A DNA stretch of 22,261 bases from a virus: positions 1 to 22,261 of the IMG/VR virus record IMGVR_UViG_3300020419_000759; one strand, written 5' to 3'. The notes below the pieces were generated by a model that did not search any database, was not told the origin of the DNA, and was given only the letters and a program-made list of their open reading frames with translations. A program made the translations under genes and the position numbers. Below, piece after piece: positions 7,167-22,261 of this stretch (position 1 is the first letter of the stretch; each line of letters starts with the position of its first letter).

Positions 7167-8081
7167 TCAAGTCCCCCAGGCGTTTCCGAATATGTCGACA
7201 TGGAGTCTTGGAGTATATCTCCATCCTCTTGCCATTGCCAATTCTGCGACCTTTTTTGTGTTGAGTTTGTATTCTTCTGATCTTCCTCCCAGTGGCATGA
7301 TATAAACGGGAACGTCGATTCCCGCTTGATTGTATTCGGCAACTGCCTTAGTAACTTCATCAACATCGGTTGAATCAGCAACCACAAATTTAAAATACAT
7401 TTTACTGTTAGGAATCCTATAATAAGAAAGAGCAATTTCAGGTTTGATAGCAGTGTGCCAAGGTTCACCTGATACGGAAAGTTTCGGAGAGCAACTCCAA
7501 GTGACTTCGAATCTGTTTTGTTTTCTGAGATAGTCCTCAAAATCCTTGTGTAAAGTCTGCGTTGTATTTGTTTCGAAAGTAACATTTTTCAAATCCTTCA
7601 TTTTAGGATGTTCAAATAAATCTACATAAAACCTCTGCCACCCCAACAAAGGCTCACCTCCAGTAAGTATAAAATGCACATCTTGTCCATTTGACATTGT
7701 CCACTTGCCTTCAGGAGTTAATGATAACACATGATCCACCACTTCGTCAATCGTTTTATCCATCATATATTTTTTGAATTCTGGATAGATACTGGCATAA
7801 GTGTCGCAACCTGTGTGTATAATTGGCAAGTCTTCAAACTTGTCAACCTTGTCCAAAACACCATCATCTAACAGTGCTTTAACCTCTGGATTATATTTTA
7901 TTCCTTGTTTTAACTTCTCTGCTCTATCAGGATGTCTGTCTATTCCAAAGTTCATGCATCTAAAGTTACAACCAAATGTTCGCAAGAACACCGAAGGCAC
8001 ACCTACAAAACGTCCTTCACCTTGTACAGAATAAAATGCTTCACTGTACCTTAATCTTTGATTGTGTAATTTACTGTGCAT
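7167..8081 (-). CDS. queE: QueE-like radical SAM enzyme (7-carboxy-7-deazaguanine synthase)
   Basis: QueE converts 6-carboxytetrahydropterin to 7-carboxy-7-deazaguanine (CDG) in the queuosine/7-deazaguanine pathway. The 304-residue sequence starts with the family-typical RYSEAFYSVQGEGRFVG (substrate-side), then FLRTFGCNFRC, has GGEP at 141-144 (SAM binding), SCSPKLS at 196-202 and a C-terminal TPRLHVDIFGNAWGT. The iron-sulfur motif is unusual: C38-x3-C42-x2-F45, so the third Cys of CxxxCxxC is Phe. C92, in HTGCDTYAS, is a candidate third ligand. The gene overlaps folE by 11 nt, which pairs the first and third pathway steps. It is longer than typical bacterial QueE (about 210-240), with an insertion at about 50-90. 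Confidence 0.88.
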   Translation of the reverse strand: MHSKLHNQRLRYSEAFYSVQGEGRFVGVPSVFLRTFGCNFRCMNFGIDRHPDRAEKLKQGIKYNPEVKALLDDGVLDKVDKFEDLPIIHTGCDTYASIYPEFKKYMMDKTIDEVVDHVLSLTPEGKWTMSNGQDVHFILTGGEPLLGWQRFYVDLFEHPKMKDLKNVTFETNTTQTLHKDFEDYLRKQNRFEVTWSCSPKLSVSGEPWHTAIKPEIALSYYRIPNSKMYFKFVVADSTDVDEVTKAVAEYNQAGIDVPVYIMPLGGRSEEYKLNTKKVAELAMARGWRYTPRLHVDIFGNAWGT

Positions 8082-8748
8082 GGCCCTTCATACTTAAACA
8101 GATATCATAAAACTCTTTTTTCAATGGAGCGTGTTTATCAAATGCACCAAGTAAAATTGCAGTTGTCATATCTGATTCATGTTCTCTCACTCCCCTTTGC
8201 GTCATGCAATGATGTTCTGCTTTTATTAATACAGCCACATTTGGAGTTTTTGCATATTTTTGTAATGCTTCTGCAATTTGTGTTGTCATCTCTTCTTGTA
8301 TCTGAGGACGTTCCGCAATATGATGAACTATTCTATTAAATTTAGATAATCCTATTACTTCTTGTTCTGGCAGTATACCTACCCAACACTTTCCTACAAT
8401 ATTCTGAAAATGGTGAGCACACGTTGACTTAACACTTATCGGACCACTTGTATATAAACTTCTATATCCCATATTAGGAAAAGAAGTAACCTTAGGTGGA
8501 TTTACAAATCTACCAGCAAAGATTTCTTGCATATACATCTTTGCCACACGTCTTGCAGTTTCTTTTGTGTTGTGATCGTTTTCAGTGTCAATTACTAGAG
8601 CATCTAGTACGTCTGAAAAAGAATCTTCAACTTCTTTTTGTAGTTCTTCTATTTCGCCTTTTTCGATATAATCAGCAATATTATCATTACTGTGAAATCG
8701 CACTTCTTTTTCCTTAAGCCTTTGCCTAATCTTTTCCGATGTTTTCAT
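8071..8748 (-). CDS. folE: GTP cyclohydrolase I
   Basis: This enzyme opens GTP to 7,8-dihydroneopterin triphosphate, the first step of both folate and 7-deazaguanine synthesis. The 225-residue protein is full length for type I. Zinc ligands are at C110 and H113 (STCAHHF) and C181 (EHHCMTQRG); the family signatures GxxS(R)F-like GLSKFNRIV and RGVREHESDMTT are present. It starts 3 nt after the upstream gene's stop, with AAGG near the ATG. In this phage it probably serves DNA base modification rather than folate, since queE overlaps it directly. Confidence 0.95.
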   Translation of the reverse strand: MKTSEKIRQRLKEKEVRFHSNDNIADYIEKGEIEELQKEVEDSFSDVLDALVIDTENDHNTKETARRVAKMYMQEIFAGRFVNPPKVTSFPNMGYRSLYTSGPISVKSTCAHHFQNIVGKCWVGILPEQEVIGLSKFNRIVHHIAERPQIQEEMTTQIAEALQKYAKTPNVAVLIKAEHHCMTQRGVREHESDMTTAILLGAFDKHAPLKKEFYDICLSMKGHAQ

Positions 8749-16678: not shown

Positions 16679-18157
16679 TTATACCTCCTCAAATAAGTTT
16701 TGAAATTGTGTACTTGCATTAACAGTTTTCTTTCCTGTTGCTCCTCTTGTGCCTATAATTGACATCCAAAATCTCTGAAACTCTTCAATCACTGCATTTG
16801 CTTCATCTCTACTGCTTGTTGCAAATACGGCATTAACAATATCTCTAAAAGCAATTCTGTCAAACTGTTCTTGTACAAGCATCTTAGGATTGATACCTTT
16901 GTCATACATTTGATTTGCTTCTTGTACTGCTTGTATATGCATCCAAACATTGTGAGCCATCTGTAGTGTGTAACTGAAACTGTCCCAACTTGTTTTAGGA
17001 TCATTACCCATTTTATTTAGGTCTCCTGGATTATAGCAAGTGATGTCTTTCAACATCCATCTTGCACTAACAGGACTGTCTCTAAACGCAGGAAATATTC
17101 CTTTTTCTAAGACAGCATCTTTGAATGCTTTTGTTTCTTTTGCAAATCCTTTATCATCTGCACTTGCCATCATTCTGTATACCCATTTGGCTTTATCTTT
17201 AATTTCTATATCTGTGTAAACTTGTCCATTTGCACTTGCTAAAAAAGGACTTGCACAATCAAATGTAATCATAAAGTTTTCGTTGTGATACTTTCTTATT
17301 GCTCTTTGTACATCAGTTAATAGCACTGCCCATTCTAATTTACTTGTACCTAAGAAGTGCATGACATCATGTTTACCTTTTTCAAGTAATCCATCAAATC
17401 TTAATGCAACCAAACGTTTTAATGCCAAATGTATATCACACATATTTTGACCACCCATTGCCCAACCATTGAAGTGTGTGCTTGGATACTTTTTAGGATC
17501 ACAGTAATCTTTCATTTGAAGATACCAATCGTCTGCTTGTTGGAAGTTTTCACCTTGTAGTACATTTAAAAATTTACAATTACCATTTCTATTTTTCATA
17601 AAGTAATCATTATTAATTCTTGTACCATCTACCGCTTCTTGATAAGAATTGATATTACTTGCTTTTGCACCTTCTGGAGAACGAGAAACCCAAGCAGGAA
17701 TATCAAGTATCATGCCATAGTCCATATTACCGTCCATGAATTCAAGCACTTGCTCTCTTTTCTTTTTAGCCTTAGGACAGGTTGGATCTTTCCAATCACC
17801 TTCCCATACACCCTTACCAATCTGGAAACCACCTGAATCACCTAATAACCAATTATCATTTCGATCTCTTTGTCTAATGATATCATCACGCACACTAAAT
17901 TTCTTCATGTTTAAATCTGCGTGACCCGCCGAGTATAAATGCCACTTGTAATAAAAATATGTGTCTTTGGACTTCATATAATTTAATCCTTCAACACCAT
18001 GCTCAAAGTTTTGAGGTATTCTTTCTGGCTTAATATAATCTTCTTCGTGTCTTGCTTTACCCAAGTCTCGAGCAAAGAAACTGCTCATAGCAGGAAGGAA
18101 CGTTGCGTAGTCCTTCTGCTTCTCAGTTAGATTATCAGTTGGTATCTTCTTATCCAT
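16679..18157 (-). CDS. dpdA: DpdA-type DNA-guanine transglycosylase (TGT-like)
   Basis: DpdA exchanges guanine in DNA for a 7-deazaguanine base, by the chemistry of bacterial tRNA-guanine transglycosylase (TGT). The 492-residue protein has each key TGT segment: D107-SGGFQ (proton acceptor), D152 in MILDIPAW, Q201 in VLQG, G235 in WAMGGQN, and D300 in TFDCASPF (nucleophile). The structural zinc CxCxxC motif of tRNA enzymes is not kept, but a lone Cys and the HN of QMAHNVWMH (near 398) align with its surroundings. This fits a DNA-acting relative rather than a tRNA enzyme. The gene follows the probable sliding clamp by 3 nt. FolE, QueD-like and QueE proteins in the window would supply the base. 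Confidence 0.88.
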   Translation of the reverse strand: MDKKIPTDNLTEKQKDYATFLPAMSSFFARDLGKARHEEDYIKPERIPQNFEHGVEGLNYMKSKDTYFYYKWHLYSAGHADLNMKKFSVRDDIIRQRDRNDNWLLGDSGGFQIGKGVWEGDWKDPTCPKAKKKREQVLEFMDGNMDYGMILDIPAWVSRSPEGAKASNINSYQEAVDGTRINNDYFMKNRNGNCKFLNVLQGENFQQADDWYLQMKDYCDPKKYPSTHFNGWAMGGQNMCDIHLALKRLVALRFDGLLEKGKHDVMHFLGTSKLEWAVLLTDVQRAIRKYHNENFMITFDCASPFLASANGQVYTDIEIKDKAKWVYRMMASADDKGFAKETKAFKDAVLEKGIFPAFRDSPVSARWMLKDITCYNPGDLNKMGNDPKTSWDSFSYTLQMAHNVWMHIQAVQEANQMYDKGINPKMLVQEQFDRIAFRDIVNAVFATSSRDEANAVIEEFQRFWMSIIGTRGATGKKTVNASTQFQNLFEEV

Positions 18158-19490: not shown

Positions 19491-22163
19491 TTATCCTCCA
19501 AAATCAAATAGGTTGTTGAATGTGTTTTTACTTTCAGTTGACTTTATATCCCAACCAAGTACGCCTAACAAGTTGCCAAGTTTGTTATCAATCAATGTGC
19601 TTTCCATAGCATCATTGTCAAATGGCAGTTCTTTAAACCAATTAGGAATATGCATTTCATCTGTTGGATAAGCCACAGATGTAAAGTCTAGTGGATTCTT
19701 TTTAAGTTTACACACAATAACTTTCATACCGTCCATAATTTCCATAGAGTATTTGTCGCTATGCATTCTTTTTAAATTGTTCCAATTGATACTTGCTCTC
19801 ACGTGTCCTGGCATATTTGCTTTGCCTTGACGTGCTTCTTTTTTAGCATACTCTTGAATGTTGTTTGCTCTACGTGGAGATCCTTTCTCCCAACCTGGTC
19901 TTTGTTTAAATTCATTTCTAAATTGACTTATTCTATCCAGTACTTCATCTTCAGTTTTCTTTGTAAGCACCATTAATAATAATTCATTTAAGAAGTCCTG
20001 TATAAACACAGGAGTATCTGACCTTTTCAGATCAAGACCCATTGCTTTTATTTTTCCTGGTTTGTTACCTTCATCCTGTCTATAACCTTCTAGATCATAT
20101 ATCAATATAGCATATCTTTTCTTTGTGATAAACAATCCAGTTTCAGCAACAGATTCTCTACCTGCTTGAATTACTTCTGCTCTTGATTTCAAACAATGAA
20201 ATGCTTTTCCCATAAATTTTTTGAAACTGCCATTTACTTCTTCACACACTTGATCATAAAGTTTTATAACACTTTCTTTAGTCCACGGAATTTGTCCCGC
20301 TTGTATTTCTTTTTTCAATACTTCATATGCAGAAAAGTATGCGGAATCTGTATCACCATATATTATTGATTTACCAACATGGTTGTATTCACCTGTGATC
20401 ACTTCATTAATTTTTGCCGCCATGTGTTTACTAATCTGTCTACCGGATAGTGTAGTTGATTGTCCAATACGTTTGTCAAAGAATCTACATCCTGGATTTA
20501 AAATTGCACCATATAAACTGTTCAAATTAATCTTCTTAACAAGTTGTCTTTTATCCCAGAATTCTATTTCAGCATCGTTGTTTGCCTCTTTGGCTTTCTT
20601 CAACATACCTTGCATTTCTTTTCTTTCTTTATACCAACGTGCAAGTAGTCCTGGTATTACTCCTTCAAACTCACTTGTGAAAATTGTACCATTAGCACTC
20701 ATCATCATAGGATTATTACTGTCGAATATCATCTTGTAAATTTCAGCACCACTCATTACTTCTGATTTGCCATCTTCCCAATCAACATGAATTGAAATGT
20801 CTTTTCTTTGTTGCATTACTGCATCATATTCTAGTGAACCAAAATGATTTTCCCAAGAACCTGCAAAGGATTTCTTTTGTAGTGTCATTTGTTCTTCAAT
20901 GTATTCATCAGTATGACTAGGTCTCAATTGTCCCATGACACATTCAGGAGCCATATTCAATGCTCTAATCACAGAAGGATAAAGTGAATTAATGTCCATT
21001 GATCCTATCCAGTTGTGTAATCCTTTTCTTGGATATGCCACATAGGCACCAGCCGCCGCTGTGTTTTCTCCTACATCTCTTTTAGGTCTATTTGGAACTT
21101 GCACCCCTCGTCTATGTGCTTCATTTATAATTGCTTGTTCTGTAACTGCAACTGCACCTAGTGTTGTTTGACATAACACTGTGTTTGCGTGTGCTAGTTC
21201 ATTTGATAATGAAATGAATCTAAGTTTCCTATCTAGTTTATCAATTAGTCTTGTATCTTGTCTGTTGTATTCTATAAAAGTTCTAAAGTCTTGGTTGTAT
21301 AACTGATCCAGACTGCCTTCATACACAGTTTTCTTTTCTCCTAGTTCATGTTCACCAATAGCATCTAATCTATAACTGTGTCGTTCTTCATATGTGTATT
21401 TTCTATAAAGTTCTAAAGAATCTAAATGCACTCTACCCACTAGATCATAAGTTTCTTGTTCACGACCAAATCTTTCAAATACTCTTTTCTTAGGCAGTTG
21501 TTTCCATAAACAAAGTTTTCTTGTGTCATCTTTGCTTAATACTTTTTGAATTCTGTTTATTACGTATGGAATATCGTAACCTTCTGAGTTCCAACCACTT
21601 AACACGTCAGCATCTTGAATTATATCTAAAAATGCTTTTAACATTTCACCTTCGTCTTTATAAAGATATAAGTTGTCTATGCCTTTTGTAATTTCTTCTG
21701 CTTCTTGTATACTCATTGTTTTTGGTGGAACAGCAAAGGTAACCAATGAGTCCATCCATTGCAACGCAACTGATATCGCTGTGATTGGCATAAATGGATC
21801 ACTTGGAGTACTAAATCCTTTTTCAGGATCAAAGTCAGCCTCAATATCAAAGAATGCAATTTTTAAATCAGGTGCATCTGCATTAAGATAATTTTCACTT
21901 AAACATTGAAATATTGGATTGATGTCTGATTCGAATAATTGTTTGTTTCTGTTTATTGCTAATTCTTTGTGAAAGTCTTTTGTTGTTTTAGATATTACTC
22001 TATTGAGTGTTTTTCCAGTTGTACTTTTATATTTTCCTCTTGGATCTTCATAGTAGAATGTGTATTTGATTGGATATTCTTTGAAAACTCTTTCACCATT
22101 TTGACGTTCAACAACTCTTACAATGTCTGCTCCTCTATCAAAATAGCCGTCTATATAACTCAT
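19491..22163 (-). CDS. 43: Family B DNA polymerase (T4 gp43-like)
   Basis: This 890-residue replicative polymerase nearly equals T4 gp43 in length (898). The 3'-5' exonuclease domain shows D106/E108 (FFDIEADF), D197 (WNSEGYDIPY) and D303 (YNRQDTRLIDK). The palm shows motif A D390-INSLYPSVI, motif B KKINLNSLYG (543-552) and motif C YGDTDS (602-607, D604 and D606). KKRYAIL follows near 690. The C-terminus NTFNNLFDFGG resembles a clamp-binding peptide such as that of T4 gp43. The ATG at 22163 has AGGAG 5 nt before it and two tandem hairpins just upstream, which may serve as an autoregulatory operator. The gene is intact within the window. Confidence 0.98.
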   Translation of the reverse strand: MSYIDGYFDRGADIVRVVERQNGERVFKEYPIKYTFYYEDPRGKYKSTTGKTLNRVISKTTKDFHKELAINRNKQLFESDINPIFQCLSENYLNADAPDLKIAFFDIEADFDPEKGFSTPSDPFMPITAISVALQWMDSLVTFAVPPKTMSIQEAEEITKGIDNLYLYKDEGEMLKAFLDIIQDADVLSGWNSEGYDIPYVINRIQKVLSKDDTRKLCLWKQLPKKRVFERFGREQETYDLVGRVHLDSLELYRKYTYEERHSYRLDAIGEHELGEKKTVYEGSLDQLYNQDFRTFIEYNRQDTRLIDKLDRKLRFISLSNELAHANTVLCQTTLGAVAVTEQAIINEAHRRGVQVPNRPKRDVGENTAAAGAYVAYPRKGLHNWIGSMDINSLYPSVIRALNMAPECVMGQLRPSHTDEYIEEQMTLQKKSFAGSWENHFGSLEYDAVMQQRKDISIHVDWEDGKSEVMSGAEIYKMIFDSNNPMMMSANGTIFTSEFEGVIPGLLARWYKERKEMQGMLKKAKEANNDAEIEFWDKRQLVKKINLNSLYGAILNPGCRFFDKRIGQSTTLSGRQISKHMAAKINEVITGEYNHVGKSIIYGDTDSAYFSAYEVLKKEIQAGQIPWTKESVIKLYDQVCEEVNGSFKKFMGKAFHCLKSRAEVIQAGRESVAETGLFITKKRYAILIYDLEGYRQDEGNKPGKIKAMGLDLKRSDTPVFIQDFLNELLLMVLTKKTEDEVLDRISQFRNEFKQRPGWEKGSPRRANNIQEYAKKEARQGKANMPGHVRASINWNNLKRMHSDKYSMEIMDGMKVIVCKLKKNPLDFTSVAYPTDEMHIPNWFKELPFDNDAMESTLIDNKLGNLLGVLGWDIKSTESKNTFNNLFDFGG

Positions 22164-22175
22164 TTATTCTCCTAA

Positions 22176-22193
22176 TGTCATTTGTGGCTGACA
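22176..22193 (-). promoter_or_regulatory. Polymerase leader hairpin 2 (5-bp stem, 8-nt loop)
   Basis: On the minus strand TGTCA-GCCACAAA-TGACA forms a 5-bp stem with an 8-nt loop. It ends 2 nt before AGGAG of the polymerase gene. The geometry is that of the T4 gp43 translational operator hairpin, while the loop sequence differs. A G-U pair could extend the stem by one. Confidence 0.65.
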
Positions 22194-22203
22194 CATACCA
22201 AAT

Positions 22204-22221
22204 AATCACTTGTGGCTGATT
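22204..22221 (-). promoter_or_regulatory. Polymerase leader hairpin 1 (5-bp stem, 8-nt loop)
   Basis: AATCA-GCCACAAG-TGATT on the minus strand forms the same 5-bp stem and 8-nt loop, 28 nt upstream of hairpin 2. The loops share seven of eight bases while the stem sequences differ and still pair, so the structure, not only the sequence, appears conserved between the two copies. Confidence 0.65.
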
Positions 22222-22261
22222 GGGCCTAACGCAAATAATATAACAGTATACCGCCTATTCC

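Follow-up and report, generated by a model that had tools for sequence, protein, structure and literature searches.

The polymerase leader and its promoter

The window, i.e. the whole stretch of 22,261 nucleotides analysed here, derives from an uncultured, apparently marine phage. Its minus strand carries the gene of a family-B DNA polymerase of 890 amino acids (19491–22163; Pfam DNA_pol_B PF00136 and PF03104; PHROG 262), which is the first gene of the transcript. The leader of this gene reads ...TTAGGC CC AATCA GCCACAAG TGATT ATTT GGT ATG TGTCA GCCACAAA TGACA TT AGGAG AATAA ATG. Two hairpins with 5-bp stems and 8-nt loops (GCCACAAG and GCCACAAA) can be read from it at the site given in the initial annotation. 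As described there, 28 nt separate the starting points of the hairpins, and 2 nt lie between the end of the second one and the Shine-Dalgarno (SD) sequence AGGAG of the polymerase gene (22169–22173, minus strand). The core TCAGCCACAARTGA occurs in two perfect copies in the window, both located in the polymerase leader.

The 8-nt loop had been regarded as a free loop of the T4 type. This view had to be given up: the first three loop bases are predicted to pair with the triplets GGC and GGT upstream of the hairpins, which had been overlooked, and the resulting fold is an H-type pseudoknot. Comparison with the relatives described below yielded a common grammar of the unit. It consists of a 3-bp stem S1 (GGY·GCC or AGY·GCU), a crossing loop L1 of 1–4 nt, a stem S2 of 4–6 bp, an L2 of 0 nt and an A-rich L3 of 5–6 nt; the hairpin loops comprise 8 or 9 nt of the form GC(C/U)NNAA(A/G). 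The proximal pseudoknot (22176–22199, minus strand) is composed of S1a GGT (22199–22197), L1 ATG, S2a TGTCA (22193–22189), S1b GCC (22188–22186), L3 ACAAA (22185–22181) and S2b TGACA (22180–22176). It is supported by covariation of S2, by covariation of S1 and S2 together and by a covariance model match with E = 4.7e-9. The distal pseudoknot (22204–22226, minus strand) was recognized from the sequence as a second unit conforming to the grammar, as in 20 other leaders. It contains S1a GGC (22226–22224), L1 CC, S2a AATCA (22221–22217), S1b GCC (22216–22214), L3 ACAAG (22213–22209) and S2b TGATT (22208–22204). Nested folding of the window leader alone gave an ordinary stability (z = +0.88), so that the argument for structure depends on the comparison with relatives.

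A -10 box, TATACT (22245–22250, minus strand), had likewise escaped the initial annotation. The window ends before reaching the -35 region, which in close relatives is TTGACA at a spacing of 17 nt. Promoters of the window's lineage match 11–12 of 12 consensus letters, while the best of 300 shuffled sequences reached 10. A near-consensus, early-type sigma-70 promoter hence lies directly 5′ of the pseudoknots, followed by a short leader. Judged from the promoter position, the transcript probably begins close to 22238, and most of the resulting leader of about 75 nt is made up of the two pseudoknots.

Covariation of the two interlocking stems

Relatives were collected in five protein-based scans of IMG/VR, their polymerases being about 70–98% identical to that of the window or to each other, and 143 distinct 75-nt leaders were extracted from near-relative loci. 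In 108 of these leaders, the proximal element directly precedes the gene of the family-B DNA polymerase. About 15 more carry it 5′ of a single gene that has been inserted in front of the polymerase, and its apparent absence from 35 leaders is therefore partly an artefact. Altogether, hundreds of related viruses retain the pseudoknot.

The sequence of S2 differs widely between near relatives (TGTCA/TGACA, TGTCC/GGACA, GTTG/CAAC, CGTTG/CAACG, GTTCG/CGAAC, GTCCA/TGGAC, GCCG/CGGC and TGCGA/TCGCA), and despite these changes the loop stays GCC followed by A-rich sequence. A structure-free alignment of 34 diverse relatives displayed two-sided changes at all five pairs. Paired cells accounted for 94.7% compared with 70.1% in shuffled alignments and at most 53% when the partner strand was slid, the paired percentage being inflated by the choice of leaders that have the hairpin and the count of compensatory changes being free of this effect. 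The covariation score of S2 in the same 34 relatives was 0.733 versus 0.251 ± 0.030. The four inner pairs require 7, 6, 4 and 3 changes when mapped onto the polymerase tree. The leader alignment that had been proposed as a check thus found the hairpins present and their pairing kept among relatives, and it bears out the earlier claim that the differences between the stems reflect selected RNA structure.

Concerning S1, all 87 distinct near elements contain a GG(T/C) triplet 6–9 nt 5′ of their loop. Such invariance is not sufficient to demonstrate pairing, and the evidence comes from distant relatives. There, a loop starting with GCU is accompanied by the upstream triplet AG(T/C) in 15 of 15 cases. 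Among 120 elements, the combinations GCC/GGY and GCU/AGY occur 105 and 15 times, respectively, while GCC/AGY and GCU/GGY are never found. Complementary S1 triplets are present in 120/120 elements compared with a mean of 20 after shuffling of the upstream letters, and S1 is 100% paired in two gapless alignments. One S1 pair changes on both sides between G-C and A-U, another alternates between U-G and C-G, and the middle pair is invariant. At least four G-C/A-U switches have to be placed on the polymerase tree; one of them separates L619 from its sister L636, and another separates L603 from its sister group.

The position of the element relative to the gene is also constrained, as in 119 of the 120 elements the fourth S2 pair and the start codon are 10–20 nt apart. 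In L615 and its relatives, S2 is reduced to CCG/CGG and its 3′ strand extends into the SD sequence (CGGAGAA). This overlap ties the fold to ribosome access. A mirror-image fit to the pseudoknot was seen in the distant polymerase leader of L581 (2480–2502; GCC-A-CUUAA-GGC-AAAAA-UUAAG), which may have arisen by chance given that 1.35% of shuffled leaders also conform to the grammar and about 80 distant leaders were considered.

Taken together, the element is almost certainly a selected RNA pseudoknot, its H-type topology being deduced from covariation. Inverted repeats about 20–70 nt after a promoter could also bind a dimeric protein at the DNA level. However, the stem letters vary freely as long as pairing is kept, the distance to the start codon is maintained, and interlocking of S1 and S2 has no meaning in DNA. 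A DNA operator or a fortuitous repeat near the promoter can hence be virtually dismissed, and a chance repeat was rejected on the basis of both covariation and specificity.

Association with the polymerase operon and copy number

A covariance model of the element (R1) was run on 15 long virus records of 43 to 358 kb and detected a single convincing site in each, located at the polymerase in every case. These sites had E-values of 7e-5 or better and the next best match in the 15 records had 0.07. Weak matches elsewhere in G001, G005, G019, G021, G028 and G030 were rejected as chance; those inspected were located inside coding sequence, had broken stem pairs or contained large loop insertions. 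Scans with DNA patterns, which are independent of any protein, gave 238 matches, 213 of them directly 5′ of the polymerase. The remaining ones were found before one inserted gene (20), cut at contig ends (2) or attributable to chance (3). The placement at the polymerase ribosome binding site expected of an autogenous operator was thus recovered well beyond the window, and it is specific to this operon.

In the 20 cases with an inserted gene, the polymerase follows 636–1534 nt farther downstream and the element stays beside whichever ribosome binding site comes first in the operon. That it tracks both the polymerase operon and its first ribosome binding site fits translational control. Repression of a polymerase gene located behind an inserted gene would presumably need translational coupling. 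The insertions are recurrent, involve differing genes and amount to between 7 and 10 changes when placed on the tree (L131–L134, L177, L180, L200, L205, L207, L213–L218, L248, L457, L467 and L495). The inserted genes code for a tryptophan-halogenase-like protein (Pfam PF04820), a 2OG-Fe(II)-oxygenase-like protein slightly below the Pfam cut-off or an unknown protein of 240 amino acids.

The element is absent from one polymerase clade (L110, L113, L116, L142, L145, L150, L162, L311, L317 and L319) and from L073, L076, L310 and L159, which indicates that it is dispensable. L106, nested within the clade lacking it, possesses the element. This clade offers a natural comparison for locating RNA-binding residues of the polymerase. 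Among cultured phages, the element was found neither in the closest relatives checked (Phosso, Atu_ph07, Paride, 121Q, GAP32 and Vibrio 2.275) nor in T4. One polymerase locus with the leader, L640, is a contig binned with a Halobacteroidaceae MAG; it is probably of phage origin and offers a possible hint at the host.

The specificity for one operon bears on the nature of the regulator. Another phage or host protein, such as a gp32-type SSB, a repressor like RegA or a ribosomal protein, might bind the pseudoknot and control the polymerase, and gp32 does bind the best-known translational pseudoknot of a phage (PMC3014915, PMC535899). A general repressor should target further genes, however, and there is only one strong site per long record. 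In addition, gp32 operators require a long unstructured A+U tract 3′ of the pseudoknot, whereas the present pseudoknot is separated from the SD sequence by 0 to about 6 nt, and RegA sites are without RNA structure (PMC3014915). We therefore consider control by such a protein rather unlikely.

Two pseudoknots conforming to the grammar, 26–30 nt apart, were found in 21 of 221 leaders scanned. In addition, L080 contains two pseudoknots 5′ of an inserted gene. On the tree of near-relative polymerases the doubled state forms one well-supported group that includes the window, with L562 and L080 outside. Distal and proximal copies have different stems, which vary separately. Most other lineages carry another covarying hairpin, CG-YY-N...GRRC-A(U/A/G)G, at the distal position, which makes the two-site leader general and the doubled pseudoknot a special case of it. 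In L038–L254 and L588–L639 this second hairpin (CG(C/U)(C/U)N...GRRC, then A(U/A/G)G) is located about 8 nt 5′ of the single pseudoknot. The idea of a two-copy operator consequently stands for the window's lineage and a few others and fails as a general description, given the 21 of 221 leaders plus L080.

The additional covarying hairpin, kept 5′ of the element in most relatives, and the location of the element close to the 5′ terminus of a short leader would also suit a constitutive role, in which the structure sets basal initiation or protects the 5′ end of the mRNA in the absence of any repressor. Such a role would require neither specificity for the polymerase nor a loop in which GCC and AA are conserved across divergence, and it appears improbable to us.

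Putative autogenous control and relation to known operators

The best reading of these data is that the leader acts as an operator through which translation of the replicative DNA polymerase is controlled. The polymerase itself is the putative binder, as suggested by the specificity of the element for its gene, the lack of a second target and the precedent of T4 and RB69, whose gp43 binds its own leader hairpin and represses translation when not replicating (PMC3014915). We assign a probability of roughly 60% to autoregulation of the polymerase through the pseudoknots. According to this model, free polymerase that accumulates would bind the pseudoknot via a nucleic-acid-binding surface and stabilize a fold that is weak alone. 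The stabilized pseudoknot would then block access of the 30S subunit to the adjoining SD sequence, and polymerase synthesis would keep pace with the number of replication forks. The second unit, located 26–29 nt upstream in the lineage of the window, might strengthen or grade repression by engaging a second polymerase or a second domain.

Autogenous control of a phage replicative polymerase has so far been worked out chiefly in T4 and RB69. The present element would represent a second, unrelated-looking solution, spread across hundreds of uncultured phages. Nature provides versions with one copy, two copies or none, and evolution has diversified both loops and stems, so that recognition of RNA by the polymerase and cooperativity through operator doubling could be tested with few short RNAs.

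The window contains a gene for a 492-aa protein and, nearby, QueE-like and FolE genes, all on the minus strand (16679–18157, 7167–8081 and 8071–8748). The 492-aa protein has no Pfam, PHROG or NCBIfam match and is conserved in 20 of 21 related records. Given its QueE-like and FolE neighbours, we presume that it may be a DpdA/TGT-like enzyme of 7-deazaguanine DNA modification.

The pseudoknot might be a riboswitch that binds a nucleotide-related ligand, for instance a 7-deazaguanine precursor, and controls polymerase translation directly. The phages carry QueE and FolE, QueE being present in the window as well as in 19 of the 21 related records that were searched, and the preQ1 class I riboswitch shares the architecture of a small H-type pseudoknot with an A-rich L3 beside the SD sequence (PMC11625349). 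This riboswitch controls queuosine genes, however, whereas the QueE and FolE genes of the window are without the element and the polymerase operon alone has it. Moreover, the base preceding the 3′ strand of P1 in preQ1-I riboswitches is an unpaired specificity C that is strictly conserved (PMC11625349). The corresponding position is here the last base of S2, which is paired and varies between A, C, G and U. No Rfam 15 family matched at the gathering threshold or at E-values up to 5, and G012 and G026, which may be fragments, have polymerase and element and no QueE match. A preQ1-like riboswitch was set aside because the Rfam match and the defining base are missing, and a metabolite riboswitch of any kind seems quite unlikely. 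If it existed, it would be a new RNA family that senses a replication-related small molecule or the nucleotide pool, with tandem copies providing a cooperative response.

A literature search, with subscription papers mostly outside its reach, found no description of such an element, and the preferred reading, a translational operator of the polymerase, is best compared with the two T4-type operators. The gene 32 operator of T4, T2 and RB69 is likewise an H-type pseudoknot 5′ of the ribosome binding site of a replication gene, and its function is autogenous repression. A 2010 review states that no other viral pseudoknot may be employed for autoregulation of translation (PMC3014915). It differs in the gene controlled, which encodes an SSB, and in the position of the T4 pseudoknot 67 nt upstream, followed by a long unstructured UUAAA tract. 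The present element, by contrast, is almost fused to the SD sequence and may be doubled.

The gp43 operator of T4 and RB69 resembles the present element in its location in the leader of a family-B phage polymerase, adjoining the ribosome binding site, and in its stem of about 5 bp with an 8-nt loop and A-rich 3′ half. In RB49 the loop core is UAAA, and some of the loops described here also contain UAAA. The gp43 operator loop has the core UAAC or CAAC and is otherwise free, whereas the UAAC motif was not found here and GCC or GCU pairs upstream. A scan of the T4 gp43 operator, AGCCU AAUAACUC GGGCU, with the present grammar revealed no H-type pseudoknot, in agreement with the 2010 review, which states that evidence for a pseudoknot is lacking in the operator of gene 43 (PMC3014915). 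Unlike the operator of T4 and RB69, the present element can occur in tandem copies. As the search for a free UAAC-type loop failed, the best reading is that the element works like the gp43 operator and does not belong to that family.
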